The translations under genes and the position numbers were made by a program. A model generated the notes under the pieces. The model worked only from the letters and a program-made list of their open reading frames with translations, was not told the origin of the DNA and did not search any database. Below are positions 38,272 through 52,665 of a stretch of DNA of 64,000 nt, one piece after another; position 1 is the first letter of the stretch, and each line of letters starts with the position of its first letter. The stretch comes from Microbispora hainanensis (lineage in GTDB: Bacteria; Actinomycetota; Actinomycetes; Streptosporangiales; Streptosporangiaceae): positions 62,001-126,000 of the forward strand of contig NZ_VIRM01000005.1 in the NCBI RefSeq assembly GCF_006874475.1. Direction: 5' to 3'.

Positions 38272-38538
38272 GGAAGCATCCTCGTCGTGAGTAAGGGCCT
38301 CTTCGAAGCCTTCCCTTCGACGAGCGGCATGCGCGTCGACGCGGTCGAATCCGGCGCGGACGACGCACGCCCGGCCTCTGTCCTCGGCAATGCTCACACC
38401 TGGGAAACACACTTGTCACCAGTCAGTGACAAAGCATCTGTAATAGGACGTTGGGAACTAAGCTCCGACGAAAGCGGCGGCAAGATCCCGCCACCTGCGT
38501 CGGGACGAAGCCCGACAAGATCATTTGAGGGAGCACCA

Positions 38539-39843
38539 TTGCGCAGAGCCGTGATTGCGTTCACGGCCTTCCTGGGCGGTCTCGTCATCCTGCTCACTTC
38601 TTCCGCCACTGCGTGGGCGGAGGGCGAGGGCTTGCGGGGCACACTCCAGAGCCAGGGCCAGCCAGTGCAGGGCGTGAAGATCACCGTGGTGACGGAGGCT
38701 GACGCGCCAATAGGCGAGGCGAAAAGCGACGCCGAGGGGAAGTGGGAGATCCCCGTTCCCAAGGCGGCCACGTACAAGGTGACGCTGGACCAGGCGACTC
38801 TCCCCGCGGGCGTCGCGCTGAAGTTCAAGGACCGCACCTCGCTCACCCTTCAGGTGTTCGAGGGCAGCAAGCGCAACGTCCTGTTCCCCTTGGTGCCGGC
38901 CGGCGCCGCGCAGGGGGGCGCCGACCAGGGAGGTGCGGCGTCCTCAGCCGACGAGAGCACCTTCTGGGACGAGTTCGCCCAGCTGGCGTTCGAAGGGCTC
39001 AACCTCGGCCTGGTGATCGCTCTGGGAGCCATGGGCATCTCGCTTATCTTCGGGACGACCGGGCTCACGAACTTCGCGCACGGTGAGCTGCTCACCGTGG
39101 GCGCCTTCATCGCCTACGTCTTCAACACGACGTTCGGACTGCACCTGCTCCTCGCCGCGCCGCTGGCGGTGATCGTGGCCGGGATCTTCGGGTACGGGCA
39201 GGAACGCTTCTTCTGGGGGCCGTTGCGTCGGCGGAAGAGCGGGCTGATCGCCATGATGATCATCTCCATCGGTGTGGCGATCTTCCTGCGTTATCTGCTC
39301 CTGTTCCTGTTCGGCGGGGAGAACGTGCCCTACCGGCAGTACGTCGCCCAGGACGGCTTCCAGATCGGGCCCATCTCCACCACCCCGAAGAGCCTGGTGG
39401 CCATGGGAATCGAGATCCTGGTCCTCATCCTGGTGGGGTCGGCTCTGCTGTTCACACGACTGGGCAAGGCAACCCGCGCGGTTTCGGACAACCCCGCGCT
39501 CGCCGCCTCCTCCGGTATCAACGTGGACCGCATCGTCCGGATCGTCTGGACGATGGGCGCCGCGGTCGCGGGTCTCGCCGGAGTACTACTGGGCACCACG
39601 CAGATCCTCAACTATCAGATGGGGCAGCAGGTGCTGCTGCTGATGTTCGCGGGCGTCACCCTCGGCGGACTCGGCACCGCCTTCGGGGCCCTGGTCGGCT
39701 CCCTCGTCGTAGGGGTGTTCGTCCAGGTCTCGACGCTGTGGATTCCGCCGGAGCTGAAGACCGTGGGAGCGCTGGCCGTGCTCATCATCGTTCTCCTCCT
39801 CCGGCCGCAAGGCATCCTCGGGCGCCGTGAGCGCATCGGCTAG
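38539..39843 (+). CDS. Liv-type permease (LivH-like) with secreted N-terminal domain
   Basis: 434 aa. Residues 1-27 are a signal peptide (ending ATAWA); about 28-125 form a beta-rich domain (LRGTLQSQGQPVQGVKITVV, KSDAEGKWEIPVP, YKVTLD) resembling carboxypeptidase-regulatory/Ig-like folds; about 145-430 are the LivH permease (SLIFGTTGLTNFAHGELLTVGA, ILNYQMGQQVLL, LRPQGILGRRE). TTG start with GAGGGAG upstream. The extra domain would face outside the cell and might meet the binding lipoprotein. LivH proteins usually lack it. Confidence 0.88.
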   Translation: MRRAVIAFTAFLGGLVILLTSSATAWAEGEGLRGTLQSQGQPVQGVKITVVTEADAPIGEAKSDAEGKWEIPVPKAATYKVTLDQATLPAGVALKFKDRTSLTLQVFEGSKRNVLFPLVPAGAAQGGADQGGAASSADESTFWDEFAQLAFEGLNLGLVIALGAMGISLIFGTTGLTNFAHGELLTVGAFIAYVFNTTFGLHLLLAAPLAVIVAGIFGYGQERFFWGPLRRRKSGLIAMMIISIGVAIFLRYLLLFLFGGENVPYRQYVAQDGFQIGPISTTPKSLVAMGIEILVLILVGSALLFTRLGKATRAVSDNPALAASSGINVDRIVRIVWTMGAAVAGLAGVLLGTTQILNYQMGQQVLLLMFAGVTLGGLGTAFGALVGSLVVGVFVQVSTLWIPPELKTVGALAVLIIVLLLRPQGILGRRERIG

Positions 39844-39855
39844 GAAGGCAGCCTC

Positions 39856-40842
39856 ATGGACTGGAACCTCATCTTCACGCGGGCGATTGAGGCGGGGATC
39901 GGCACCGAAGCGGTCATCTACGCGCTCGCGGCGATCGGCCTGAACATCCACTTCGGGTACACGGGCCTGCTGAACTTCGGGCAGGCCGGATTCCTTGCGG
40001 TGGGGGCGTACGGCCTGGCCACAATGATCGCGACCTTCGGCATGCCGTTCTGGGTGGGCATCGCCACCGGTCTCCTCGGCGCCGTAGTGTTCGCCCTTCT
40101 CCTCGGCATCCCCACTCTCCGGCTGAGGGCGGACTACCTGGCGATCGTCACCATCGCCGCCGCGGAGATCGTGCGCCTGGTCGTGCGATCCGTCGCCCTC
40201 CGGGACACCTTCGGCGGCACGGACGGCTTGGAGGCGTTCTCCGACGACTTCTACGCCATGAATCCCTACTCTCCGGGTGAGTACGGCATCGGGCCCATCG
40301 GGTTCGATCACCGCACCATGTGGGTGCTCACGGTCGGTTGGGTGCTCGTGGCCCTGGCGTGCGTCCTGGTGTACCTCGTGATGAACAGCCCCTGGGGCCG
40401 GGTGCTCAAGGCGATCCGCGAAGACGAGGACGCGGTGCGGAGCCTGGGCAAGAACGTGTTCGCCTACAAGATGCAGGCGCTCGTCTTCGGCGGAGTCGTG
40501 GGCGCGCTGGGCGGCTTCCTGTTCGCGCTCAGCCGGGCCGCCACCCAGCCCGACCTGTTCAGCACCGAGATCACCTTCTTCGCGTACACCGTCCTCATCC
40601 TCGGAGGCGCGGCGCGGGTGCTCGGGCCCGTGGTGGGCGCGGCCATCTTCTGGCTGCTGCTGATCCTGGTGAAGACCGGCATGGAGGAGGCGGTCAACAA
40701 CCACGTGATCACCTTCATCAACGTGAACCAGGTGGGCTCCATCAACTACATGCTCGTCGGTGTCGGCCTGATACTCCTGCTGATCTACCGGCCCCAGGGC
40801 ATCTTCGGCGACAAGAGGGAGATCGCGCTCGATGCACGCTGA
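39856..40842 (+). CDS. Liv-type permease (LivM-like)
   Basis: 328 aa membrane protein; LNIHFGYTGLLNFGQAGFLAVGAYG and the coupling loop GRVLKAIREDEDAVRSLGKNVFAYKMQ are LivM features. 12 nt after the LivH-like stop with GGAAGG upstream. Ends LIYRPQGIFGDKRE. Overlaps the ATPase gene by 11 nt. Confidence 0.94.
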   Translation: MDWNLIFTRAIEAGIGTEAVIYALAAIGLNIHFGYTGLLNFGQAGFLAVGAYGLATMIATFGMPFWVGIATGLLGAVVFALLLGIPTLRLRADYLAIVTIAAAEIVRLVVRSVALRDTFGGTDGLEAFSDDFYAMNPYSPGEYGIGPIGFDHRTMWVLTVGWVLVALACVLVYLVMNSPWGRVLKAIREDEDAVRSLGKNVFAYKMQALVFGGVVGALGGFLFALSRAATQPDLFSTEITFFAYTVLILGGAARVLGPVVGAAIFWLLLILVKTGMEEAVNNHVITFINVNQVGSINYMLVGVGLILLLIYRPQGIFGDKREIALDAR

Positions 40843-41757
40843 TGCCGTCACCACCAGAAAGGCGGCCGCGCTGGCCGCCTTCGAGGGCCTGCCCACCGAG
40901 CCCGGGACCCCCAAACCCGACCCGATCCTGGTCATCGACAAGGTCGTACGCAGGTTCGGCGGCCTCACCGCGGTCGACGTCGAACACCTGGAGATCCAGC
41001 GCGGCGCGATCACCGCCCTGATCGGCCCGAACGGCGCGGGCAAGACGACGTTCTTCAACCAGCTGACCGGCTTCGACTCGGCGGACGAAGGGTCGTGGAC
41101 CTTCAACGGCAAGCAGTTGAAGGGCGTGCCCGCTCACCGCGTCGCGCGGCAGGGCATGGTGCGCACGTTCCAGCTCACCAAGGCCCTGTCCCGGCTGACC
41201 GTGATGGAGAACATGCGGCTCGGGGCGCAGAGCCAGCGTGGGGAGAACTTCTTCCGCGCGCTGATCCCGGGCATCTGGCGCGGCCAGGAGAACGAGATCA
41301 CCGAGAGAGCGGAGGAGCTCCTCGAGCGCTTCAAGCTCGCCGCGAAGCGCGACGACTTCGCCGGGTCCCTCTCCGGCGGCCAGCGCAAGCTCCTGGAAAT
41401 GGCCCGCGCGCTGATGGTCGGCCCCGAACTGGTCATGCTGGACGAGCCCATGGCGGGCGTGAACCCCGCCCTCACCCAGTCGCTGCTCGGTCACGTCAAG
41501 GACCTGCGCGAGGAGGGCATGACGGTGCTGTTCGTCGAGCACGACATGGACATGGTCCGCGACATCAGCGACTGGGTCGTCGTGATGGCACAGGGCGCCG
41601 TGATCGCGGAAGGCCCGCCGGACACCATCATGTCGGACCCGCGGGTGGTCGACGCCTACCTGGGCGCCCACCACGACGCGCCGTTGTCGGCCGAGGAGAC
41701 CGAGGAACAGTTGCAGGACGCCGAGGCCGAGCTGGAGTCCGAGATCGAGGAGAAGGC

Positions 41758-41761
<4 letters not shown>
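40832..41761 (+). CDS. Liv-type ABC ATPase (LivG-like)
   Basis: 309 aa. Walker A GPNGAGKTT, LSGGQRKLLEMARAL, Walker B LVMLDEPMAGVN, H-loop VEHDMDM. N-terminal extension of about 30 residues and an acidic C-terminal tail (EETEEQLQDAEAELESEIEE). ATG start, overlapping the permease stop; its stop overlaps the next ATG (atga). Confidence 0.94.
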
Positions 41762-42597
<836 letters not shown>

Positions 42598-42618
42598 CGC
42601 GAGACGAGGAGCATCCGG

Positions 42619-43473
42619 GTGGGGGAGTGGCGGCGGTTTTCCCTGCTTGCCGCGACGGTCGTCGCCGCGGCCACGGCGGTCGGCTGCGGCGCCGACGCCG
42701 GACCATCGGCCGAGCCCCCGCCCGGCGTCAGCGTCAGCCTGCAGCAGAATCGCTCGGACGTTCCGGCGCACAAGATGCAGGTGGCCGTACGCAACGACAC
42801 CGCTACTCCGGTGTATTTCAAGGACGTGCGGCTGCTCACGGACTCCTTCCAAGAGACGCCGCCCCAGCCGGTGGACACGGTCCTGGGAAGGACTCCGCGT
42901 ACGGACTTTCCCATCTCCTACGGCGCCGCCCGTTGTGCGCCCACGCGCATTCCCGACGCCGAACCGGCGACCGTGGTAGCGCACATCGCCGTGGGCAAGG
43001 GCCCGCTGCACGAGGTCAGGTGGCGGATTCCCCACCCCGACCCGCTGCTGCGGCAACTGGTGAACATCGAGTGCGGGGAGTTCCTGCTGAGGCGGTCCAT
43101 CGACGTGACCTTCGGCCCCGCCTGGACGCGGTCCGGGCGGCAGCTGCGGGGAGCCCTGCGGGTGGACCTCAAAGCGGGCGCCGGGCAGGTGACCATCGAG
43201 GACATCGCGGGCACGACGCACTACGACCTGCGGCCCGCGTCGGGAGAGCCTAAGCCCGTGGCCGTCCTCACCGGCACACGGGACCTTCCCGTCGTCGTGA
43301 CACCGAGCCGGTGTGACCGGCACGCCATGGGGGAGGCCAAGCAGGCGTACCTGTTCTCCCTGTGGGCGTCGGCGGGCGGAACGCAGACCTATCGGTTGAT
43401 CGTGGTGCCGGATCAGCGGACCCAGCGGCTCTTCGAGTCCTACGCCATGGAGGTCTGCGCCGAACGCCGCTGA
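42619..43473 (+). CDS. Lipoprotein of unknown function, paralogue of 18532-19386
   Basis: 284 aa, signal peptide and lipobox AVGC (C23). Aligns end to end with the product of 18532-19386 (same length, shared blocks GVSVSL, VRNDTAT, LGRTPRTD/LGKTPRTD, EPATVVAHI/RPATVVAHI, HPDP, ECG, DVTFG, GTTHY/ATTHY, RCD, AKQAYLF/AKKAYLF). No family recognised. GTG start with GAGGAG upstream. Sits just after the liv operon and before the Cys-rich peptide cassette, convergent with its ABC exporter. Confidence 0.78.
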   Translation: MGEWRRFSLLAATVVAAATAVGCGADAGPSAEPPPGVSVSLQQNRSDVPAHKMQVAVRNDTATPVYFKDVRLLTDSFQETPPQPVDTVLGRTPRTDFPISYGAARCAPTRIPDAEPATVVAHIAVGKGPLHEVRWRIPHPDPLLRQLVNIECGEFLLRRSIDVTFGPAWTRSGRQLRGALRVDLKAGAGQVTIEDIAGTTHYDLRPASGEPKPVAVLTGTRDLPVVVTPSRCDRHAMGEAKQAYLFSLWASAGGTQTYRLIVVPDQRTQRLFESYAMEVCAERR

Positions 43474-43494
43474 CCGGGCCACTGTCGCCCGGCC

Positions 43495-45336
43495 TCACAC
43501 GCCGGCCGCGGACACGTTCGTCTCGTCGCGGTAGCCCGACGCCTGCAGCCGGAACAGCCGCGCGTAGATGCCGCCTGCCCTGATCAGCTCGTCATGGCCG
43601 CCCGTCTCCGCGAACACGCCGTCGTCGAGGACGGCCAGCGTGTCGGCGTGTCTGATGGCGCCGAGCCGGTGCGAGATGAGCAGGCTCGTCCGGCCGAGGC
43701 GCAGGTCCGAGATGCGCGTGTGCACCTCGTGCTCGGCCTCGGCGTCCAGGCCGGAGCTCGGCTCGTCCAGGATCAGGAAGTCTCTGTCGCCCCGCAGCAG
43801 GGCGCGGGCCAAGGCGATGCGCTGCCACTGGCCGCCGGAGAGGAAGACGCCAATGCTCTCATCACCGTTACGGCCGGAATCGACGAAGATCCTGGTCAGG
43901 AGGGTGTCATAGCCCTTCGGTAGTGACTCGATCGCCTTGTGGATTCCCGCGTTCCGAGCCGCCGCCTCGACCGCAGAGTCGTCCGCGAGGAGCTCCAGGG
44001 CACCGATGCCGATGTTCTCGCGCGCGGACAGGTCGTATTGCATGAAGTCCTGGAACGTGGCACCGATTCTGCATCTTAGCTCCGCCGGGTCGAAGTCGCG
44101 CAGGTCGATGCCGTCCCAGGTGATGCGGCCTCTGGTCGGGTCGTACATTCGGCACAGCAGCTTGACGATCGTGCTCTTCCCCGCGCCGTTCAACCCGACG
44201 AGCCCGGTGCAGGCGTCGGCCCTGATCTCGAGCGTGGCGCCCCGGAGAACCCACGGGTGTTCGTCGTTGTAGCGGAACCAGACGTCCTCCAGCTTGATGC
44301 CGTGCGTTAGGGGGGGAACGGGCCGGGGACTGGCGGCGATCACGAGATCGGATTCCGCGTTCTCCACCTCGAGGTAGCTCCTGAACAGCAGGAGCTGCTG
44401 GTGCGTGCGGGCGACCTGGCCGACGAGTCCGGCGAGCTGATTCTGTACTCCGCCCACCGCAGCAACGAACATCGAGATGTCGCCGACCATCAGGGTGCCC
44501 TGGCTCGCCCGGAGGATGGTCCAGACGAGGCCGCCTCCCGCGATCAGCGCCGCCAGCACGCCGAGCGCCGACTGAACGCGTAACTCCCGCACGTCCAGTT
44601 TCCGGTTCGCGGCGTTCGCCGTCTCCCGGTCGTCGATCATGCGCCCGTGCAGGAAGGCGCCTATGCCGAACAGCCGGATCTCCTTCGCCGCCTGGGGGTC
44701 GGCCATCAACTGGCTGTAGAACAGCTCGCGCCGTTCGACCGGGCCCAGCTTGAGATACGTGGCCACTCGGCACCGGGAGACGGAGAGCTCCGCCAGGAGC
44801 GCCGGAATCGCGCCGATCAAGAGGACGGCGGCCAGGACCGGGTTCAGGGCGAGCAGGCTGCCGGTGAAACCGAGGATCCCGACGACGGCCGCGCCGATGG
44901 ACAGTGCCCCCGTGAGGATCTGGCTGGGGGTGCGGCCCCCCATGGTCTGTGCGAGCCGCAGCCGGTCGAGGAAGGCGGGATTCTCGAAGCGGGCGAGTCC
45001 CGGCAGCCGGTTGACCGCGGTGTACAGGCGGCTCTGAGCGGCCAGCGCGATCGACCTGTCGAGTTCGGACTGGCAGTAACGGGAGCCCTGCTCCAGGCCC
45101 TTGGACAGCAACCCCAGTGCCGCGAGGAACAGGGACAGGCCGAGCACCGCGGCCGTGGAGTGGCTCGCCACGATGGAGTCAAGTATCAGCTTGGTCGACC
45201 ATGCGACGGCGACGGGCACCGCGGCCAGGGCGGCCGCGATCAGCACCGCCAAGACGACCAGGCGTGGCCGCGTCCGCCAGGCCAGGGAAATCGTCTTTGC
45301 GGTCATACGGACGTTGTCCTTCGCCGACTTCATCAA
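43495..45336 (-). CDS. ABC exporter of the Cys-rich peptide cassette
   Basis: 613 aa: about six transmembrane helices (25-310) then ATPase with Walker A GLNGAGKST (K387), LSGGQ (499-503), Walker B LILDE (E525) and SHR H-loop. No N-terminal C39 peptidase domain (only about 20 residues precede the first helix), so it cannot trim leaders itself, matching the separate S26 proteases nearby. TTG start with GAGGAG 7 nt upstream, or ATG 45333. Last gene of the minus-strand module, after a strong hairpin; probably exports both precursor peptides (inference). Confidence 0.88.
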   Translation of the reverse strand: MMKSAKDNVRMTAKTISLAWRTRPRLVVLAVLIAAALAAVPVAVAWSTKLILDSIVASHSTAAVLGLSLFLAALGLLSKGLEQGSRYCQSELDRSIALAAQSRLYTAVNRLPGLARFENPAFLDRLRLAQTMGGRTPSQILTGALSIGAAVVGILGFTGSLLALNPVLAAVLLIGAIPALLAELSVSRCRVATYLKLGPVERRELFYSQLMADPQAAKEIRLFGIGAFLHGRMIDDRETANAANRKLDVRELRVQSALGVLAALIAGGGLVWTILRASQGTLMVGDISMFVAAVGGVQNQLAGLVGQVARTHQQLLLFRSYLEVENAESDLVIAASPRPVPPLTHGIKLEDVWFRYNDEHPWVLRGATLEIRADACTGLVGLNGAGKSTIVKLLCRMYDPTRGRITWDGIDLRDFDPAELRCRIGATFQDFMQYDLSARENIGIGALELLADDSAVEAAARNAGIHKAIESLPKGYDTLLTRIFVDSGRNGDESIGVFLSGGQWQRIALARALLRGDRDFLILDEPSSGLDAEAEHEVHTRISDLRLGRTSLLISHRLGAIRHADTLAVLDDGVFAETGGHDELIRAGGIYARLFRLQASGYRDETNVSAAGV

Positions 45337-45395
45337 TGCCCGGCTCCTCGGCCCACTCGTTTTCGCCTTTTACATCGCAGTGCGGTATCGAGGTA

Positions 45396-45434
45396 AAAAG
45401 GACCCTGAGCCGGAAGTCGGCTCAGGGTCCTTTT
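45396..45434 (-). terminator. Strong intrinsic terminator/attenuator after precursor peptide 1
   Basis: Perfect 16-bp stem AAAAGGACCCTGAGCC with its complement, 7-nt loop, flanked by A/T runs so it would work on either strand. It begins 3 nt after the peptide stop and ends 59 nt before the exporter start. Expected effect: many precursor transcripts, fewer exporter transcripts. Confidence 0.85.
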
Positions 45435-45437
45435 CGA

Positions 45438-45653
45438 TTACAAGCAGCAGCCGAACTGGTTGCAGTGCTCGGTGCACTGCGATGTCAATGTGCAGTTGTA
45501 CTGTGCCTGCCCGAACGGGACGCCCGGGCAGGTTCCTGCGCACACAGTGGAGCTGCTCGGCGTGCAGGCGGCGGCGGCACTGGTCCGCGGCGCCATCCAT
45601 CCCGCCACTCTCGCGAGCGACACGTCCGCCATTCGGTTGAGAATTCCGACCAT
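45438..45653 (-). CDS. Cys-rich precursor peptide 1
   Basis: 71 aa. Leader residues 1-29 (starts MVGILNRMADV, no long hydrophobic stretch) ending in S-A-A-A-A, then a predicted 42-residue core with eight cysteines at core positions 1, 9, 13, 25, 31, 35, 40 and 41 (four possible disulfides). Ala at -1 and -3 suits a type I signal-peptidase cut before the first Cys. Excellent ribosome site (GGAGGTG, 7 nt spacing) and a terminator right after the stop mark a highly expressed small gene. Same layout as the peptide at 47305. Function (bacteriocin, toxin, signal) unknown. Confidence 0.8.
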   Translation of the reverse strand: MVGILNRMADVSLARVAGWMAPRTSAAAACTPSSSTVCAGTCPGVPFGQAQYNCTLTSQCTEHCNQFGCCL

Positions 45654-45660
45654 GTTTGTT

Positions 45661-45667
45661 CACCTCC
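45661..45667 (-). promoter_or_regulatory. Strong ribosome-binding site of precursor peptide 1
   Basis: GGAGGTG on the minus strand, 7 nt before the ATG; it fixes the start of this short gene. Confidence 0.8.
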
Positions 45668-45729
45668 AACTGGAATCTGTACTGCTTCTTATGGCATCCC
45701 GTTCCTGCGACGCGGAACAGGAAGATCTT

Positions 45730-46269
45730 CTATATCCGCAGGCCGTAGCTCGCCGTTACCAGCTGCGAGACGAGCGTCGCGTTCGAAGCGACGTACCCGT
45801 CCATCACGCGCAGCAATGTGGGGAACCGGTTGACGCCGAAGGACTCCACCAGTTTCGAGGGATTGTCCTCGTGAATTACATGTGCCGTCGTTCTCCTGGC
45901 CATGCCGATCATGTTCTCCCGGTCCGGCCCGTCCCCGACTATCGCTATCACGGCATTAGTGTCGGCAGGGAGTTCGCTGAGGAATTCGGTGAACTCCGGG
46001 AGCCGCTCCCGGCAGGGTGCGCATGTGACCGAGAAGAACCCAATGAGATACGAGCCGTCCAGTCGCTCGGCACTGATCTCTTCGCCCGCCAGTCCTTCGG
46101 CGACGAAATCAGGGGCTTGGGTGCCCGGTTTGGGAAGCGCCTCCAGTCCGGGCCCCGCGTCCGCAGGGAGAGAAAGCCGCTGCATTTTGCGTATCAGGCC
46201 GTAGGTCAGGAGCAGGTTGACGCCGCAGAGTGCGCCAAGGAGCGTGACTGCCGCTGCGAGGATCTCCAT
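45730..46269 (-). CDS. Membrane-anchored TlpA/MauD-like thiol-disulfide protein 1
   Basis: 179 aa. One N-terminal transmembrane helix (about 3-25), then a thioredoxin-like domain with C83-A-P-C86 (FFSVTCAPCRERLPEF) and a cis-Pro loop in FGVNRFPTLL. Starts on the overlapping stop of the S26 gene (taatg), so the two are coupled, and lies directly upstream of precursor peptide 1. By analogy with MauD, which is needed for disulfides in the multi-disulfide methylamine dehydrogenase small subunit, it likely oxidises or isomerises the exported peptide. Its N-terminus resembles that of the protein at 47670. Confidence 0.82.
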   Translation of the reverse strand: MEILAAAVTLLGALCGVNLLLTYGLIRKMQRLSLPADAGPGLEALPKPGTQAPDFVAEGLAGEEISAERLDGSYLIGFFSVTCAPCRERLPEFTEFLSELPADTNAVIAIVGDGPDRENMIGMARRTTAHVIHEDNPSKLVESFGVNRFPTLLRVMDGYVASNATLVSQLVTASYGLRI

Positions 46270-46787
46270 TACCGATGGTCCTTCTGGGAGGGTATAAAAC
46301 GTCGTGCCGTCATCTGTATTTCACGCCGCCGGCCGGGTGATTCCGCAGGCGAAAAGCGGGCCACGGCGTACACCCACCTGTGGGGGACGGCTCCCCACTG
46401 GCGGGAATCGAGACTGTTCATGGACTCGCCCAGGACCACCACAGTGCCCTCGGGCACGAGACGGTCCCGTCCGCCGCCCGGTATTCCGGGCGGGAAATTC
46501 TGCCCACCCAGGGCCACGACCCGTTTGACGAAGCGGTAGGCATGGTCGTTGCCGCGCAGATCTTCGAATCCGTCGGTGGAGGGCAGTGCGTGTTCCGGCA
46601 CACGGAGAAGGACCACGTCGCCGATCCTGAGACGCTCGCGGCGAGTCCGGTCGAACACCACGCGGTCGCCGGGAAGCAGTGCTGGGTACATGCTCGAACC
46701 GTGGATATCCACTAGAAGATATCGGCGTCGGATGGCTAGGGCGACTATTGTCGTCGCTATAAGCGAAAACGCTATGATGATTGCCAA
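46269..46787 (-). CDS. S26 signal-peptidase-like protease 1
   Basis: 172 aa. One N-terminal transmembrane helix (about 2-19), serine box HGSSMYPALLPGDRVVF (S32 catalytic) and lysine box YRFVKRVVALGG (K88 catalytic), then LGESMNSLDSRQWGAVP, the conserved GDN-x-x-x-S-D-S-R region (with GES in place of GDN). Complete Ser-Lys dyad, so probably active, presumably cutting the A-A-A-A|C site of the precursors. TTG start at 46787; GGGAG lies somewhat far upstream, so a CTG three codons earlier is possible. First gene of the minus-strand module. Confidence 0.8.
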   Translation of the reverse strand: MAIIIAFSLIATTIVALAIRRRYLLVDIHGSSMYPALLPGDRVVFDRTRRERLRIGDVVLLRVPEHALPSTDGFEDLRGNDHAYRFVKRVVALGGQNFPPGIPGGGRDRLVPEGTVVVLGESMNSLDSRQWGAVPHRWVYAVARFSPAESPGRRREIQMTARRFIPSQKDHR

Positions 46788-47304
46788 CGTATGCAGCGTT
46801 GCTCCCTGTGGTTTCTATTCGAAGAATAGATGTCATTGGCGCTCAATGTTGGCTGGGAGGCTGCCGGTGCTCCGTCCCCTTCTTATTCAGGCGGGTCGGC
46901 CACAATGGCGACTCTGTCTGAGCGGATCGAGTTCCGGGTTGCTCTCGCCTTGGCTGCTTCGATATTCGACCGATCCTGGAGATCTTGTCAAGTGTCAGTT
47001 ACTTCAGGGTCGTGGTGACGATGACTGCGTGGTTAACACGAGGTTAGGCGATAGTCAAAACCCTTGCTTTGGTCAGATTTCGATGACAGCGAGCGCCTGC
47101 TGTCATCATGCGAATTGTGGCAGTGCTCGGACACGTGTCGGGTGTCTTCGGCTTATGTCAACGCGTAGTCAGTTGATTGCGGGAAGTATGTCCTCGCCGT
47201 CACCTCTTGAAGCTTCTCGACGAGATCTGGACCTTGACTTGCCAACTGGTCGCTGTTCAACTGTAGGTGTTGATTCGTTCGTCGCGACCAGAAAGGGCTG
47301 CCTC
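46788..47304. promoter_or_regulatory. Divergent intergenic region of the peptide cassette
   Basis: 517 bp without a supportable gene, lower in GC than the surrounding sequence. It separates the two modules and must hold both promoters. Visible: the palindrome at 46814-46830 and a TTGACT at 47234-47239 that could be a -35 for peptide 2, without a convincing -10. A 62-codon reading from 46830 has no family and no ribosome site. Confidence 0.5.
46814..46830. promoter_or_regulatory. Palindromic operator candidate upstream of S26 protease 1
   Basis: TCTATTC-gaa-GAATAGA, a perfect 7-3-7 inverted repeat 27 nt upstream of the S26 start. No regulator gene is encoded in the cassette. Confidence 0.4.
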
Positions 47305-47508
47305 ATGCTGAACTATTTAGCTCGCCTCAAGGACGAGTTGTTGTCGGCGGTGCTGCCGTCTTCGGAGGCCGCGGCCGCCTGTTCGCTGGCTGGCCGTTCG
47401 TGCCGCCACTGCTCGTCGACATACTCCGAGCTGGTGGAGACTTATGACTGCCCGGTCGGGGGTATCAGCCAGTACGTAGAGCACTACTACGGCTGCGGTA
47501 CCTGCTGA
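47305..47508 (+). CDS. Cys-rich precursor peptide 2
   Basis: 67 aa. Leader residues 1-25 (starts MLNYLARLKDEL, amphipathic rather than hydrophobic) ending E-A-A-A-A, then a 42-residue core with six cysteines at core positions 1, 8, 11, 24, 39 and 42 (three possible disulfides). Shares with peptide 1 the AAAA|C junction, core length, cysteine spacing in the first half, Tyr-[Asn/Asp]-Cys at core 22-25 and aromatic-Gly-Cys near the end. GAAAGGG 7 nt before ATG. Longer in-frame readings have no leader-like start and are rejected. Confidence 0.8.
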   Translation: MLNYLARLKDELLSAVLPSSEAAAACSLAGRSCRHCSSTYSELVETYDCPVGGISQYVEHYYGCGTC

Positions 47509-47527
47509 CGTCGTTTCGACGCCGTCT

Positions 47528-47548
47528 CGGTCGTGAATGGTACGACCG
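47528..47548 (+). terminator. Short hairpin after precursor peptide 2
   Basis: CGGTCGT / ACGACCG with 7-nt loop, 20 nt after the stop; a weaker counterpart of the hairpin after peptide 1. Confidence 0.4.
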
Positions 47549-47669
47549 CGCTCCGGACGGGAACGAACGCTTCGCGAGGAGAGAGGCCGGTATCGTGGCA
47601 TCTGTTTGGGGCTGCGATGCCGGCCACCGTAGACATACAATTCCGCCATTCTTTTCCTGGAGTTGACTC

Positions 47670-48194
47670 GTGGTCGCATTACAGCTGGTACTACTACTGT
47701 TGACATTGTTCCTGACAATGCTCAACATCGTCGTGACCCTGGGCCTCGCTCGCAGGATCGGGCGGGGAGGTGGGCTGGCGCCGACTCTTCCGGGCGGACC
47801 GCAGCTCAGCTCATCTCCGGGAACCGCCATCGGTCGGTTCGAGGCGACCGGTACCCGGGGGGAGAGGGTCACGCGCGACGCTCTCGAATTCGGCACCGTC
47901 GTCGCCTTCCTCTCGGCTGGCTGCGAGCCCTGCCATGAGGTCCTGCCCGACTACCTCTCCTACGCGAGCGCGAACACGGGAAAAGTCGTGTCGGTCCTGA
48001 GCGGTGAGCATGAGGCGGAAGTGATCGCGGCCCTAGAGGCCGCGGGGCCGGTGATCCTGGAAGAGCCCAACGGACCCACGGCCAGAGCGTTCGGGGTGGT
48101 TGGAGTGCCCGTCTTCGTGACGGTCGGCGTAGGTGACGTGGCCGCGACCGACACGAGGATCCGCCCGGAGTCGCGGCTCGACGTGCGGGCGTAG
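47670..48194 (+). CDS. Membrane-anchored TlpA/MauD-like thiol-disulfide protein 2
   Basis: 174 aa. Transmembrane helix 2-27, thioredoxin-like domain with C85-E-P-C88 (LSAGCEPCHEVLPDY) and cis-Pro loop FGVVGVPVFV. Shares with the protein at 45730 the N-terminal NxxxTxGLxR pattern at the end of its membrane helix, and the same gene neighbours, so the modules are likely duplicates. GTG start with GGAG 7 nt upstream. Expected role: disulfide formation in precursor 2 after export (inference). Confidence 0.82.
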   Translation: MVALQLVLLLLTLFLTMLNIVVTLGLARRIGRGGGLAPTLPGGPQLSSSPGTAIGRFEATGTRGERVTRDALEFGTVVAFLSAGCEPCHEVLPDYLSYASANTGKVVSVLSGEHEAEVIAALEAAGPVILEEPNGPTARAFGVVGVPVFVTVGVGDVAATDTRIRPESRLDVRA

Positions 48195-48205
48195 GGCGGC
48201 GTCCG

Positions 48206-48618
48206 TTGCTCGCGTCGTCCGCAGGTGCGCCCATCGTCTTGACGGTGTTCGTCGCACTGCCGGCTGTCTGCGTCGTCTCGATACTTCTGCTGCGGAGCAG
48301 GTTCCATGTCGTGAGCGTTTTCGGACTGAGCATGTATCCGTACCTGAACGCGGGGGACAGGGTGATCATCGAGCGTCGCCCTGACCGCTGCGGTCGCGGA
48401 GACGTCGTCCTCATCGTGTCTCCCGGCTGGCCAGGCCAAGTCATCAAGCGGATAGCCGCCGTCGGAGGCGACCGGTTCCCGTGCGATGCGGGAGTGGTGC
48501 CCCAGGCCATGTCTTCGTCCTAGGGGACAATCTCGAGGCGAGCGTGGACTCGCGGCACTTCGGGTTTGTGCCGGTGGAGCGCGTGGTGGGACGCGTGATC
48601 CGCCGGCTGGCGCTCTAG
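48206..48618 (+). pseudogene. S26 signal-peptidase-like protease 2, one-base frameshift
   Basis: Reads as an S26 protease: membrane helix (about 10-30), serine box VFGLSMYPYLNAGDRV (S42), lysine box QVIKRIAAVGGDRFP (K81). The frame then stops at 48523, while the adjacent frame continues GHVFVLGDNLEASVDSRHFG to a stop at 48618, exactly the missing C-terminal region. One extra C in the CCCC run at 48500-48503 would restore a 137-aa protein (V-P-P-G-H). Either a true mutation, a sequencing error or, less likely, programmed shifting. TTG start assumed 11 nt after the TlpA-like stop. Confidence 0.75.
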
Positions 48619-48726
48619 GGAGTGCCCCCCGCGCCAGGTAGAAGATCAAAAGGATCTGACCTGGTCCTGGAAGAACGGCCCGGCCCGCCTTCACGCCGGT
48701 CCTCGTATGTTGTGGAGCCATACTCA

Positions 48727-49245
48727 ATGGGTTATTCGGTGGTCTTCAGCGGGACTCTGCTCATCGTCGTCTTCTTGGTTTCGGGCGTGGGCAAGTGGTT
48801 CGGCTACGCCACCTTCGTGGCGTCGATTCGTGAACTGCGGGTGCTGCCGGTCAGCGCCGTCCCGCGCGCCGCGGCCCTGGTGATCGCCGCGGAACTCGGC
48901 ATCGCGTCGACCCTCGCCGCGGGCATGATGGTCGAGCCTGCCCTTCGCGCGTACGCCTTCGTCCTCGCCGCTCTGATGCTCGCGGGCTTCACCGCGGTGA
49001 TCGTGATTACGCTTCGCAGAGGTGGATCCGGAGGCTGCGCCTGTTTCGGGCGTCGGTCGTCGGAGTTCTCCGGGCGGCACCTGGTGCGCAACGCCGTACT
49101 GCTCGTCGCGGCCTTGGCGGGAGTCGTCGGTGCCCGGGAAGATCTCGGGGCCTGGACCGCGGGAACCGCCGTCGCGATCACGGCGGGCCTGGTCCTGTCG
49201 CTCCTCGTGGTCGTCATGGACGACGTGGTAGACCTGTTCGCCTGA
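48727..49245 (+). CDS. MauE-like redox membrane protein of the peptide cassette
   Basis: 172 aa, about four transmembrane helices, with G-C-A-C-F-G (C104, C106) in the loop after the third, the MauE/DoxX-type redox motif. In methylamine dehydrogenase biogenesis, MauE acts with MauD to make disulfides; here it would recharge the two TlpA/MauD-like proteins. ATG 48727 chosen for GGAG at 9 nt; an upstream start at 48622 would add 35 polar residues without a ribosome site. Last gene of the plus-strand module. Confidence 0.82.
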   Translation: MGYSVVFSGTLLIVVFLVSGVGKWFGYATFVASIRELRVLPVSAVPRAAALVIAAELGIASTLAAGMMVEPALRAYAFVLAALMLAGFTAVIVITLRRGGSGGCACFGRRSSEFSGRHLVRNAVLLVAALAGVVGAREDLGAWTAGTAVAITAGLVLSLLVVVMDDVVDLFA

Positions 49246-49278
49246 GGCTCCGGAACCGGAGGCCGGGAGAGTGGGACA

Positions 49279-49356
49279 AGCCCGTGGGAAGGACCTTTGG
49301 GACCGTACACAGCTTCCCCGGCTCCGCACGTTGTCTACTCGGTCTTCCCACGGGCT
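49279..49356. repeat. Long inverted repeat after the MauE-like gene
   Basis: AGCCCGTGGGAAGgACC (49279-49295) pairs with GGTCTTCCCACGGGCT (49341-49356) with one bulge and a 45-nt loop. It lies between the cassette and the convergent thioesterase; could end the cassette transcript. Nothing else seen between 49246 and 49504. Confidence 0.5.
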
Positions 49357-49504
49357 CTGGAGCCACAACGGTAGCGACCGGAGCGACTCCCGTGCAAAGA
49401 GAGTCGCAAGCCGTTCCGTTATGAGGCCCAATGCGTCGTAAGGGGTTTTCATGGTGCTTGCCCGGCCCGCCCGTGGGCGGGCGTGCCCCGCGAGCCGGGC
49501 GGGC

Positions 49505-49921
49505 TCAGGCGGCGTCCCTGAGCATGCAGGTCAGACGGGCCGTGCAGACCGCCCGGCCCTCGTCGTCGGTGATCTCGATGACGTACGTCGCGAGCGTGCG
49601 CCCGCCGTGCACCCGGGTGGCGACGGCGGTGACGTGTCCCGAGGTGGCGGAGCGGTGGTGGGTGGCGTTGATCTCGATGCCGACGGCGATCCTGCCCGGG
49701 CCGGCGTGCAGGGCGGCGCCGGTCGAACCGAGGGTCTCGGCAAGCACACAGGACGCGCCGCCGTGCAGCAGCCCGTACGGCTGCGTGTTGCCCTTGACGG
49801 GCATCCGGCCGACCACCCGCTCGGCGCTGGCCTCCAGGATCTCCAGCCCCATCCGCCGGTGCAGGTGGTCCCCGGGCGCGTTCATGAACGCCACGAACTC
49901 CTCGGGATTCGTCAAGGTCAA
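49505..49921 (-). CDS. PaaI-type hotdog thioesterase
   Basis: 138 aa. NTQPYGLLHGGASCVLAETLGS is the PaaI-family motif with the conserved His-Gly-Gly and catalytic acid, followed by GIEINATHHRSATSGHVTAVATRVHGG. Likely hydrolyses an aromatic or hydroxyaryl-CoA; menaquinone-pathway DHNA-CoA hydrolase is another possibility. TTG start with AGGAGG at 8 nt. Divergent from polA with 62 nt between. Confidence 0.88.
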   Translation of the reverse strand: MTLTNPEEFVAFMNAPGDHLHRRMGLEILEASAERVVGRMPVKGNTQPYGLLHGGASCVLAETLGSTGAALHAGPGRIAVGIEINATHHRSATSGHVTAVATRVHGGRTLATYVIEITDDEGRAVCTARLTCMLRDAA

Positions 49922-49971
49922 GGGGACGCCTCCTGTGGGAAGAGCATGGGTTTTCTGTCGTACAGGGAGAC

Positions 49972-49977
49972 TAGGCT
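49972..49977 (+). promoter_or_regulatory. -10 element of a leaderless polA promoter
   Basis: TAGGCT at exactly -12 to -7 of the GTG at 49984; no ribosome site for that start. Confidence 0.6.
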
Positions 49978-49983
49978 GCGGAT

Positions 49984-52665
49984 GTGCCGAAGAGTGAAGC
50001 GACCCCCACCCGTCCGTGTCTGCTGCTCCTGGACGGGCATTCTCTTGCTTATCGCGCGTTCTACGCGTTGAAAGACGCGAACCTCATGACCACCGACGGT
50101 CAGCACACCGAGGCGGTGTACGGCTTCACGTCGATGCTGGCCAACATCCTCCGTGACGAGCAGCCGAGTCACGTCGCGGTGTGCTTCGACCGGAGCGAGC
50201 CGACCTTCAGGCACGAGGCGTACGACGGCTACAAGGCCAACAGGGCGGAGACCCCCGAGGACTTCCGCGGCCAGATGCAGCTCATCTTCGAGCTGCTCGA
50301 CGCGCTGCGCATCCCGCGCCTGTCCGTGGCCGGCTTCGAGGCGGACGACCTGATCGCGACGCTGGCGACCCGGGCCTCGGCCGAGGGCATGGACGTGCTC
50401 ATCGTGACCGGCGACCGCGACGCGCTCCAGCTCGTGAACGACAAGGTCACGGTGCTCATGACGCGGCGGGGCATCAGCGACATGACCCGTTTCACCCCCG
50501 AGGCCGTCAAGGAGAAGTACGGCCTCACCCCGGCGCAGTATCCGGACTTCGCGGCCCTGCGCGGCGACCCGAGCGACAACCTGCCGAGCATCCCGGGCGT
50601 GGGGGAGAAGACCGCCACCAAGTGGATCTCGGAGTACGGCTCGCTCGACGAGCTGGTCCGGCGGGCCGACGAGGTGAAGGGCAAGGTCGGCGAGAAGCTC
50701 CGCGAGCACCTCGGCCAGGTGATCCACAACCGGATGCTGACCGAGCTGAGGCGCGACGCCCCGGTCGACGCCGAGCCGTCCGCGCTCACCATCGGCCCGT
50801 GGGATCGCGAGGAGGTCAACAAGCTCCTCGACGCGCTGCAGATCCGCGGCGAGCTGCGCGAGCGCCTGTTCAAGACCCTCGGCACCACCGACCCGGAGGC
50901 GGGCGAGGGCTTCGAGATCGAGGTGACCGTGCTCGAGCCGGGCCAGGTGGCCGGCTGGCTGGCCGCCCTCCCCGAAGACCGCGCCGGCCTGGCCTTCCAG
51001 GGCACGTACGGCAGCGGCACCGGGCGGATCGACGGTCTGGCGATCGCCTCGCCGGGCGGCGCCGCCTACCTCGACCCCACACGCCTCACCGAGGAGGACG
51101 AGGCGGCGCTGCGCGCCTGGCTCGCCGACGAGAACAGGCCGAAGGCCGTGCACGACGCCAAGGGGCCGCTGCTCGGGCTGTGGGCCCACGGACACGATCT
51201 GCGCGGCCTCACCTGCGACACGGCGCTCGCCGCATACCTGGCGATGCCGGGGCAGAGGTCGTTCCCGCTCGACGACCTGGTCCTGCGCTACCTCCACCGC
51301 GAGCTGCGGGCGGAGTCCGCGCCCGGCGGGCAGACCTCCCTGTTCGACGACGCCGACGAGGGCGCGGCCCGCGACCTGGCGCTGCGGGCCCAGGCCGTGC
51401 GCGACCTGGCCGACGCGCTGGAGGCGCACCTGTCCCAGCGCGGCGGCACCCGGCTGGTGACCGAGGTCGAGCTCCCGCTGGTGCGGGTGCTGGCCCAGAT
51501 GGAGCGGGCCGGCATCGCCGCCGACCGGCAATACTTCGCGGCGCTGGAGGCCGAGTTCGGCGCGGCCGTCAAGCAGGCGGTCGAGGCCGCCCACCAGGTG
51601 GTGGGCGAGCAGTTCAACCTCGGCTCGCCCAAGCAACTGCAGGAGATCCTGTTCGGCAAGCTCGGCCTGCCCAAGACCAAGAAGATCAAGACGGGCTACA
51701 CGACCGACGCCGACGCGCTCGCCTGGCTGGCCCAGCAGACCGACAACGAGCTGCCGGTGATCCTGCTGCGCCACCGCGACCAGACCAAGCTGCGCACCAC
51801 GGTCGAGGGCCTGATCAAGGAGATCTCCGACGACGGGCGGATCCACACCACGTTCAACCAGATCGTGGCGGCCACCGGGCGGCTGTCGAGCGAGAAGCCC
51901 AACCTGCAGAACATCCCGATCCGCACGGTCGAGGGCCGGCGCATCCGCAAGGGTTTCGTGGTCGGGGAGGGCTACGAGACGCTGCTGACGGCCGACTACA
52001 GCCAGATCGAGCTGCGGATCATGGCCCACCTGTCCGGGGACGAGTCGCTGATCGAGGCCTTCGAGTCGGGCCACGACTTCCACCAGGCCACCGCGTCGCG
52101 CGTCTTCGACCTGCCCCCGGAGCAGGTCGACGCCGAGCTGCGCGCCCGGATCAAGGCCATGAACTACGGCCTTGCCTACGGCCTGTCCGACTTCGGCCTG
52201 TCGGGGCAGCTCAACATCCCCGTCGCCGAGGCCAGGGCGCTCAAGGAGGAATACTTCGAGGAGTTCGGCGGCGTCCGCGACTACCTGGAGTCGATCGTCG
52301 CCCAGGCCCGCAGGGACGGCTACACCGAGACCATCCTCGGCCGCCGCCGCTACCTGCCCGACCTGACCAGCGACAACCGGCAGCGCCGGGAGATGGCCGA
52401 GCGGATGGCGCTCAACGCCCCCATCCAGGGCTCTGCCGCCGACATCATCAAGGTCGCCATGCTCAACGTGCAGAAGGCGATCGAGGGCATGCGCTCCCGC
52501 ATGCTGCTCCAGGTCCACGACGAGCTGGTGTTCGAGGTCGCGCCGGGCGAGCTGGACGAGCTGACCGAGGTCGTGCGCACCCAGATGGGCCGGGCCTACG
52601 ACCTGAGCGTCCCGCTGGAGGTCAGCGTGGGCGTCGGCACCACCTGGGAGGACGCCGGCCACTGA
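49984..52665 (+). CDS. polA: DNA polymerase I
   Basis: 893 aa. 5'-3' exonuclease domain (about 10-295: LLLDGHSLAYRAFYAL, CFDRSEPTFRHE, FEADDLIATLA, VTGDRDALQL, GDPSDNLPSIPGVGEKTA). The middle 3'-5' exonuclease-like domain lacks the D-x-E metal site (the strand reads GLAFQGTYGSG), so no proofreading. Polymerase domain with ATGRLSSEKPNLQNIP, motif A ADYSQIELRIMAH and motif C QVHDELVFEV (H845-D846-E847). GTG start, probably leaderless. Followed by a hairpin. Confidence 0.97.
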   Translation: MPKSEATPTRPCLLLLDGHSLAYRAFYALKDANLMTTDGQHTEAVYGFTSMLANILRDEQPSHVAVCFDRSEPTFRHEAYDGYKANRAETPEDFRGQMQLIFELLDALRIPRLSVAGFEADDLIATLATRASAEGMDVLIVTGDRDALQLVNDKVTVLMTRRGISDMTRFTPEAVKEKYGLTPAQYPDFAALRGDPSDNLPSIPGVGEKTATKWISEYGSLDELVRRADEVKGKVGEKLREHLGQVIHNRMLTELRRDAPVDAEPSALTIGPWDREEVNKLLDALQIRGELRERLFKTLGTTDPEAGEGFEIEVTVLEPGQVAGWLAALPEDRAGLAFQGTYGSGTGRIDGLAIASPGGAAYLDPTRLTEEDEAALRAWLADENRPKAVHDAKGPLLGLWAHGHDLRGLTCDTALAAYLAMPGQRSFPLDDLVLRYLHRELRAESAPGGQTSLFDDADEGAARDLALRAQAVRDLADALEAHLSQRGGTRLVTEVELPLVRVLAQMERAGIAADRQYFAALEAEFGAAVKQAVEAAHQVVGEQFNLGSPKQLQEILFGKLGLPKTKKIKTGYTTDADALAWLAQQTDNELPVILLRHRDQTKLRTTVEGLIKEISDDGRIHTTFNQIVAATGRLSSEKPNLQNIPIRTVEGRRIRKGFVVGEGYETLLTADYSQIELRIMAHLSGDESLIEAFESGHDFHQATASRVFDLPPEQVDAELRARIKAMNYGLAYGLSDFGLSGQLNIPVAEARALKEEYFEEFGGVRDYLESIVAQARRDGYTETILGRRRYLPDLTSDNRQRREMAERMALNAPIQGSAADIIKVAMLNVQKAIEGMRSRMLLQVHDELVFEVAPGELDELTEVVRTQMGRAYDLSVPLEVSVGVGTTWEDAGH

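Follow-up and report, generated by a model that had tools for sequence, protein, structure and literature searches.

A compound gene cassette of Microbispora hainanensis predicted to direct the synthesis of two disulfide-rich secreted mini-proteins

The window analysed here, a stretch of 64,000 nucleotides from Microbispora hainanensis (assembly GCF_006874475.1, contig NZ_VIRM01000005.1, positions 62,001 to 126,000 of the forward strand), contains genes for two Cys-rich precursor peptides, two TlpA-like CxxC proteins, two S26 proteases, one ATP-binding cassette (ABC) exporter and one MauE-family membrane protein. This locus is quite probably a compound cassette, dedicated to two disulfide-rich mini-proteins that would be made ribosomally, secreted and matured outside the cell. 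The pathway would be export-first and disulfide-only, resembling those of ribosomally synthesized and post-translationally modified peptides (RiPPs), and is well supported by comparison with related loci. In the broad sense of the term RiPP, the locus holds what is expected: ribosomal precursors with leader and core, encoded beside processing and export genes.

In the proposed pathway each precursor would consist of a short leader, carrying a conserved Asp and a P-x3-A-x-A site, and a core of 42-43 residues. The ABC exporter would carry the reduced precursor across the membrane, and the membrane-anchored S26 protease would cleave it on the outer side, after A-x-A. The TlpA-like protein, likewise anchored, would form or shuffle the disulfides, four in peptide A and three in peptide B, while MauE, via its C-x-C pair, would keep the TlpA-like protein in the right redox state. 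With export first and maturation outside, such a pathway would be unlike those of RiPPs modified in the cytosol. The first-pass annotation of this DNA, made from the letters alone, had already suggested export, cleavage by a dedicated S26 protease and folding by a MauD/MauE-type relay; the A-x-A leaders, the invariant catalytic Ser and Lys of the proteases and the even Cys counts described below support processing of this kind.

Precursor peptides and their leaders

The peptide A precursor (71 residues, 8 Cys) is encoded on the minus strand (45438-45653), the peptide B precursor (67 residues, 6 Cys) on the plus strand (47305-47508); both are open reading frames (ORFs) that fit the leader rule of the family. 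The leader of peptide A reads ...MADVSLARVAGWMAPRTSAAA, with a predicted cut leaving ACTPSSST..., and that of peptide B reads MLNYLARLKDELLSAVLPSSEAAA, with a predicted cut leaving ACSLAGRSC... In each leader the run AAAA precedes the first Cys, and neither leader has a double-glycine end. The motif D...P-x3-A-x-A, a signal-peptidase type of site, is common to the family, its D, P and both A residues being invariant in 17/17 aligned leaders, the two from the window included. Cleavage by the P-x3-A-x-A rule would more likely give 43-residue cores starting with A-C in both peptides. The 42-residue cores named in the first-pass annotation do not follow from this rule, but may arise from a cut one residue later, since AAAA offers two A-x-A frames.

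A blind leader profile, built from 28 same-genus leaders with those of the window excluded, was applied to 5,648 ORFs taken from 50 loci outside the genus and gave 43 matches at E<=0.01. Read from the matched leader to the stop codon, all 43 were Cys-rich, and all 43 had an even number of Cys. Distances to a strictly called cassette gene were at most 0.75 kb for 41 matches and 2.0 and 5.1 kb for the others; six of the 43 were long ORFs with the peptide at the 3' end. A wider profile, based on the 17 aligned leaders with those of the window among them, gave 82 matches in 88 loci and 81 distinct precursors, the locus L052, whose peptide has six Cys, being left out of the counts. (Throughout, L numbers denote the cassette loci compared and G009 the genome of a close relative of the same genus.) Loose peptide calling produced false positives, and all counts therefore rest on the leader profiles. 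The Cys number was even in 81/81 precursors, as against 290/444 control ORFs (other ORFs of 45-80 residues with at least 4 Cys): 57 precursors had six Cys, 19 had eight, two had four, two had ten and one had twelve. An A-x-A site stands before the first Cys in every one of the 81, and P-x3-[AV]xA, in which exactly three residues separate P from the site, in 79.

The leaders do not appear to be Sec-type signal peptides. The highest 19-residue hydropathy before the first Cys is 0.81 in peptide A and 0.48 in peptide B, and 1.46 over 87 uncurated candidate leaders (a few false positives included), while the N-termini of the TlpA, S26 and MauE proteins score 2.2-2.9 on the same scale. As the leaders lack a strongly hydrophobic core, export via the adjacent ABC protein rather than Sec would be the simplest reading.

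Leaders are conserved and cores variable by substitution rates. Among 13 precursors from 12 Microbispora loci, the nonsynonymous rate (dN) was 0.047 for leaders and 0.224 for cores, and the synonymous rate (dS) 0.194 and 0.411, respectively, and the six Cys were all fixed. Precursor families differ widely in Cys spacing. No known peptide family was recognised: Pfam gave no match above the cut-off (DUF4762, at 0.05 for peptide B, falls below it), NCBIfam gave no peptide family match for the precursors, PHROGs gave just one match at 0.05, for the L004 peptide, and PDB sequence searches with the peptides returned nothing below E 0.6. Within the set compared, relatives of peptide B were found in L088 and L101. 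The predicted peptide fold (mean predicted local distance difference test, pLDDT, 57.7) was too poor for use.

Export, cleavage and redox proteins

In transcription order the minus strand carries S26-1, TlpA-like 1, peptide A, a hairpin and the ABC exporter, and the plus strand carries peptide B, TlpA-like 2, a frameshifted S26-2 and MauE. The first-pass annotation had described two divergent modules, each with a peptide, a CxxC protein and an S26 protease; the peptides, the CxxC proteins and S26-1 were confirmed, whereas the plus-strand S26 gene proved to be frameshifted. The shared exporter (43495-45336, minus strand), a fused permease and ATPase recognised by Pfam (ABC_tran, with weak AAA/SMC matches) and NCBIfam, has no C39 peptidase domain by Pfam, and the membrane protein with the CACFG motif (48622-49245, plus strand; alternative starts at 48712 or 48727) is a multi-helix protein of the MauE family (PF07291, 3.8e-23), both in line with that annotation.

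TlpA-like protein 1 (45730-46269, minus strand) is a TlpA/ResA-like, membrane-anchored protein of the thioredoxin fold with a CAPC motif and the conserved Pro150, assigned by its Pfam AhpC-TSA match and by alignment. TlpA-like protein 2 (47670-48194, plus strand; CEPC) has no Pfam match at E<=0.1 and weak NCBIfam matches, but aligns with the other TlpA-like proteins and retains the conserved C85, C88 and P147. Both proteins have the thioredoxin-type CxxC, the conserved Pro and an N-terminal anchor, with a Pfam match for the minus-strand copy only. Peptidase_S26 matches both S26 genes. The protease encoded by S26-1 (46269-46787, minus strand) is intact and combines this match with the catalytic Ser32/Lys88 dyad and an N-terminal hydrophobic membrane anchor, the features of a type I signal peptidase.

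These catalytic features are conserved across the family. Ser and Lys of the S26 proteases are invariant in 72/72 sequences (the broken window copy excluded), C-x-C of MauE is present in 82/82, and in the TlpA-like proteins the first Cys is found in 77/77, the second Cys in 75/77 and the Pro in 77/77. The cluster-encoded S26 protein is the likely leader peptidase. Four loci, L113-L116, look like a different branch: no S26 was detected there, the 8-Cys precursors lack A-x-A, and a neighbouring gene belongs to the FtsX-type permease cluster.

The even Cys counts, together with the TlpA and MauE genes, lead us to infer disulfides in the products. The TlpA/MauE pair is predicted to handle them, whether by oxidation, isomerisation or reduction. 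The best solved relatives of the TlpA-like protein are the thiol-disulfide oxidoreductases StoA and ResA, some of which are reductants. These relatives would also suit exported metal-binding peptides, metallothionein-like or metallophore, with TlpA and MauE keeping the thiols reduced, and even Cys numbers would equally suit paired metal ligands. Such products are nevertheless improbable: Cys spacing varies widely among the families, the commonest Cys count is six (57/81), the extracytoplasmic site favours oxidation, and no obvious metal-transport gene occurs among the gene clusters listed, although no family search was aimed at such genes.

A frameshift interrupts S26-2. Its catalytic Ser and Lys lie in a frame (48206-48523, plus strand) that stops at 48523, the last conserved block of the C-terminal part (~48496-48618) sits in another frame, and PF10502 matches the gene as two pieces in different frames. 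The frameshift may be a true lesion or an error of the draft assembly. As S26-2 is frameshifted, S26-1 may now serve both precursors. The broken frame and compound structure, and the empty site in the close relative G009 described below, would also fit a decaying remnant in which module B is no longer made. We regard decay as unlikely, given that both precursors, both TlpA genes, MauE, the ABC gene and S26-1 are all open, that both precursors obey the family leader rule, and that S26-1 could serve the two of them.

The remaining features of the locus are regulatory or lie at its borders. A GC-rich hairpin with A/T flanks (45396-45434, minus strand; -35.8 kcal/mol, z -8.4) separates the stop codon of peptide A from the exporter gene. 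Identified by folding and not listed by the pattern scan, it is a possible terminator or attenuator. Downstream of precursors in general, 18/80 stretches folded with z<-3, compared with 3/132 random stretches from the same loci (simple shuffles). The divergent intergenic region (46788-47304) presumably holds the promoters of both operons; the pattern scan found no sigma-70-type promoter match in it.

Recurrence and neighbouring genes

The source genome has three cassettes, the window locus, L004 (peptide-MauE-TlpA-ABC-S26) and L005 (MauE-TlpA-ABC-S26-peptide). In a search of this genome, 3/3 matches to the MauE query and 4/4 matches to a profile made from the four TlpA-like proteins of these cassettes fell inside the cassettes, and ten Peptidase_S26 rows, grouped by reading into six genes, comprised four genes in cassettes and two in tandem elsewhere. 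MauE relatives at E<=1e-6 were found in 14/15 genomes of the genus, at up to four places per genome. At E<=1e-12 they were found in at least 166/297 genomes of an order sample, all those listed belonging to the same family, and in at least 36/394 genomes of a class sample, 14 of them outside the family; these counts concern MauE alone and may be low, about 11 and 8 candidates per genome, respectively, having been scored.

For comparison 84 loci were assembled: the window, L004, L005, L013 and 80 fetched stretches, the latter comprising 31 of the 35 places in other genomes of the genus and 49 places chosen from the order and class samples, mostly with high scores plus outgroups. All four protein families were present in 69/84 loci (MauE in 82, TlpA in 74, ABC in 76 and S26 in 71), a co-occurrence that is conditional, since the loci were found via MauE and chosen by hand and also served to enrich the profiles. 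Split by hand, the complete loci numbered 3/3 in the source genome, 29/31 elsewhere in the genus, 31/35 in other genera of the family and 6/15 outside the family. A precursor with a leader-profile match was found in 67/88 loci. The first-pass annotation had proposed as a check that homologous peptides should stand beside TlpA, S26 and MauE genes in other genomes, and this is what was observed. When the 15 genomes of the genus were searched whole, 35/38 leader matches (E<=1e-5) had a MauE place within about 5 kb, with 150 candidates per genome scored and a profile that includes leaders from some of the genomes searched. Of the three matches away from the MauE places, L125 comes with TlpA, ABC and S26 and with a fragment of MauE; the others, L124 and L126, are described below.

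Crude gene calls from 83 loci, when clustered, yielded ABC proteins (72 loci), MauE and TlpA merged into one cluster (63), a regulator cluster (45), an S26 cluster (37) and a response-regulator-like cluster (12), the rest occurring in at most 10 loci. Homologs of the L004 regulator, which has helix-turn-helix, NB-ARC and TPR domains, occur in 35/84 loci, the window not among them, and in 34 lie within 0.9 kb of the cassette; the regulator in L044 has BTAD and NB-ARC domains. An FtsX-type permease cluster was found in seven loci (Pfam checked on L065 only) and is a candidate immunity or second export system; such a permease lies beside a peptide and S26 in L065 (8026-10884) and, by eye, in L127 (3970-6828).

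The most likely role of the products is antimicrobial or competitive in some other way. The same cassette, working as described, could instead make signals (pheromones) or developmental surface peptides, a use we consider possible but doubtful. NB-ARC/TPR or BTAD regulators adjoin many cassettes and the response-regulator-like cluster occurs in 12/83 loci, both of which would suit signalling, while the strong variation of cores within one genus, the presence of as many as four MauE places per genome and the FtsX-type permease, of a possible immunity type, in seven loci speak for competition. The AgrD/AIP (autoinducing peptide) system differs in its thiolactone ring, formed by AgrB, and is not known to involve TlpA or MauE. 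AgrD, the signal precursor of this system in Staphylococcus aureus, likewise has a short amphipathic leader, in whose removal signal peptidase I is possibly involved according to the available text (PMC10196373).

An additional cytosolic modification, which would make the product a conventional RiPP with extra disulfides, is highly improbable. Genes of a pre-ATP-grasp type do lie near MauE and ABC genes in three outgroup loci (L112:8908-9936, L119:8916-9935 and L113:10531-11541; Pfam checked on L112 only), and MauE may, given such neighbours, serve other RiPP types too; L112 also carries two Cys-rich precursors. Among the gene clusters listed, however, no other enzyme shows a spread like that of the four families, and the flanking ORFs of the window with Pfam matches encode housekeeping functions, namely branched-chain amino acid transport, thioesterase, DNA polymerase I and DUF2127. 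Lanthipeptide, sactipeptide and lasso enzymes, reported absent in the first-pass annotation, were indeed not found among the ORFs tested (39.8-53.6 kb of the window), nor were class-defining YcaO enzymes.

Several observations weigh against the disulfide-only pathway or limit its generality. First, one of the two S26 genes of the window is broken, and the relatives of TlpA and ResA include reductases. Second, at least one family is missing in 15/84 loci and a leader match in 21/88, some of the latter holding Cys-rich candidates, and the conditional sampling noted above bears on all counts of co-occurrence. Third, peptide and protease do not always agree: in L101 the precursor carries A-x-A, yet the fetched stretch contains no S26, and in L087 and L095 S26 is accompanied by a V-x-A leader instead. 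Fourth, some peptides lie outside complete cassettes. L126 has a leader-bearing peptide with TlpA, ABC and S26 but no MauE match, L127 has a peptide and S26 without MauE, TlpA or a cassette-type exporter, and L124 (7558-7716) has the family leader, yet a 15.5 kb stretch revealed no cassette gene; it is a possible orphan served from elsewhere. Fifth, positive selection on the cores is unsupported (core dN/dS about 0.55), and the response-regulator-like cluster in 12/83 loci fits signalling as well. Sixth, a DsbB/VKOR-like fold of MauE was not borne out: the AlphaFold2 model has a mean pLDDT of 82.9, but Foldseek returned no solved structure at E<=0.001. Sequence matches to BURRH (about 2e-6) and alanine dehydrogenase were taken as composition matches. 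Finally, as shown below, the idea of linking MauE with RiPPs is not wholly new.

Genomic site, related systems and implications

The nearest relatives of four window proteins in the set compared are all encoded in L088, a single cassette from another genus: TlpA-like 2 (62%), the first part of S26-2 (57%), MauE (53%) and the ABC exporter (68%). TlpA-like 1 and S26-1 have distant relatives, with 31-40% identity among the matches listed. In L060, from the same genus, the layout is that of the window without module A, with the exporter on one strand and peptide-TlpA-S26-MauE on the other. Given the L088 relatives and the L060 layout, the window looks like a cassette of the L088/L060 type joined by a second peptide-TlpA-S26 module that would share its exporter and MauE.

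The close relative G009 (97% DNA identity in the right flank) has no cassette at this site. Homology to the DNA of congeneric genomes picks up again at the right edge, 49279, in 13/14 genomes compared and at 49253 in the remaining one. Relative to the window, G009 (L143) and L060 carry the branched-chain amino acid transport block (window 38527-42597) in inverted orientation. The L060 cassette lies on the other side of this block, and its exporter has the same orientation as in the window, so that one simple inversion fails to explain the difference. The cassettes of L081 (another genus) and L108 (another family) also adjoin branched-chain amino acid transport and thioesterase genes, as do those of L060 and the window (39856-52665), the shared neighbours hinting at a preferred or ancestral cassette site. 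The ORF adjoining the cassette (42619-43473, 284 residues) has no Pfam match and a lipoprotein-like start by eye, and nothing in the G009 stretch aligns with it.

A familiar parallel for the redox pair is methylamine utilisation, in which MauE, of the same Pfam family, and, broadly speaking, the thioredoxin-like partner MauD serve a disulfide-rich protein (described in PMC7794033). The client in the window is a small peptide, and no methylamine dehydrogenase subunit genes occur among the neighbouring ORFs tested. The first-pass annotation knew of no characterised peptide system with this gene set, and none was found in the literature searched, to which this statement is limited; part of the idea had, however, been put forward in the decRiPPter study (PMC7794033), the only work noticed in that literature that links MauE to RiPPs. 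According to its available text, three candidate RiPP families of Streptomyces contain mauE, one of them also mauD; they are uncharacterised, and the authors proposed that MauE/MauD modify RiPP precursors, their strict filter having required a peptidase, a transporter and a regulator (PMC7794033). As in those families, MauE (PF07291, 3.8e-23) stands beside small Cys-rich precursors in the window, with 8 Cys in peptide A and 6 in peptide B compared with at least 8 in the decRiPPter precursors. The likeness is one of description, and the text available for that study gives no S26 protease, leader rule, Cys parity or family spread such as those of the family described here (PMC7794033).

TMcin of Staphylococcus resembles the proposed pathway in membrane maturation, leader removal and ABC secretion, and a cluster-encoded DsbA-family enzyme, TmcD, serves its RiPP disulfide at the membrane (PMC13252029). 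It differs in the transmembrane helix of its precursor, its single disulfide, the S2P-type protease TmcP and separate ABC subunits, and the available text mentions no S26 or MauE, unlike the window (PMC13252029). No TMcin-type transmembrane helix was found before the first Cys in the window precursors, in keeping with the hydropathy values given above (0.81 and 0.48). Cinnamycin-type lantibiotics such as coerumycin share with the window an actinobacterial precursor with A-x-A (AYA/AFA), for which recognition by a type I signal peptidase has been postulated; in the available text this peptidase is a general one, not cluster-encoded, and the products carry lanthionine rings (PMC12837462).

For the family as a whole, the chances seem evenly balanced that the cassettes form a large actinobacterial class of export-first, disulfide-only mini-proteins, with one leader code (D...P-x3-A-x-A) recognised by both a dedicated ABC exporter and a dedicated S26 leader peptidase, a portable MauE/TlpA pair for oxidative folding outside the cell, hypervariable cores mostly with 6 or 8 Cys behind the common leader, and modules that can be combined around one exporter, as the window suggests. 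If the proposed pathway is true, such cassettes would be a widespread actinobacterial source of stable disulfide-rich peptides, whose precursors would be easy to find by the simple leader rule. It would also assign a role to S26 proteases encoded in clusters and to MauE outside methylamine metabolism, and could provide a tool for making disulfide-rich peptides in bacteria.

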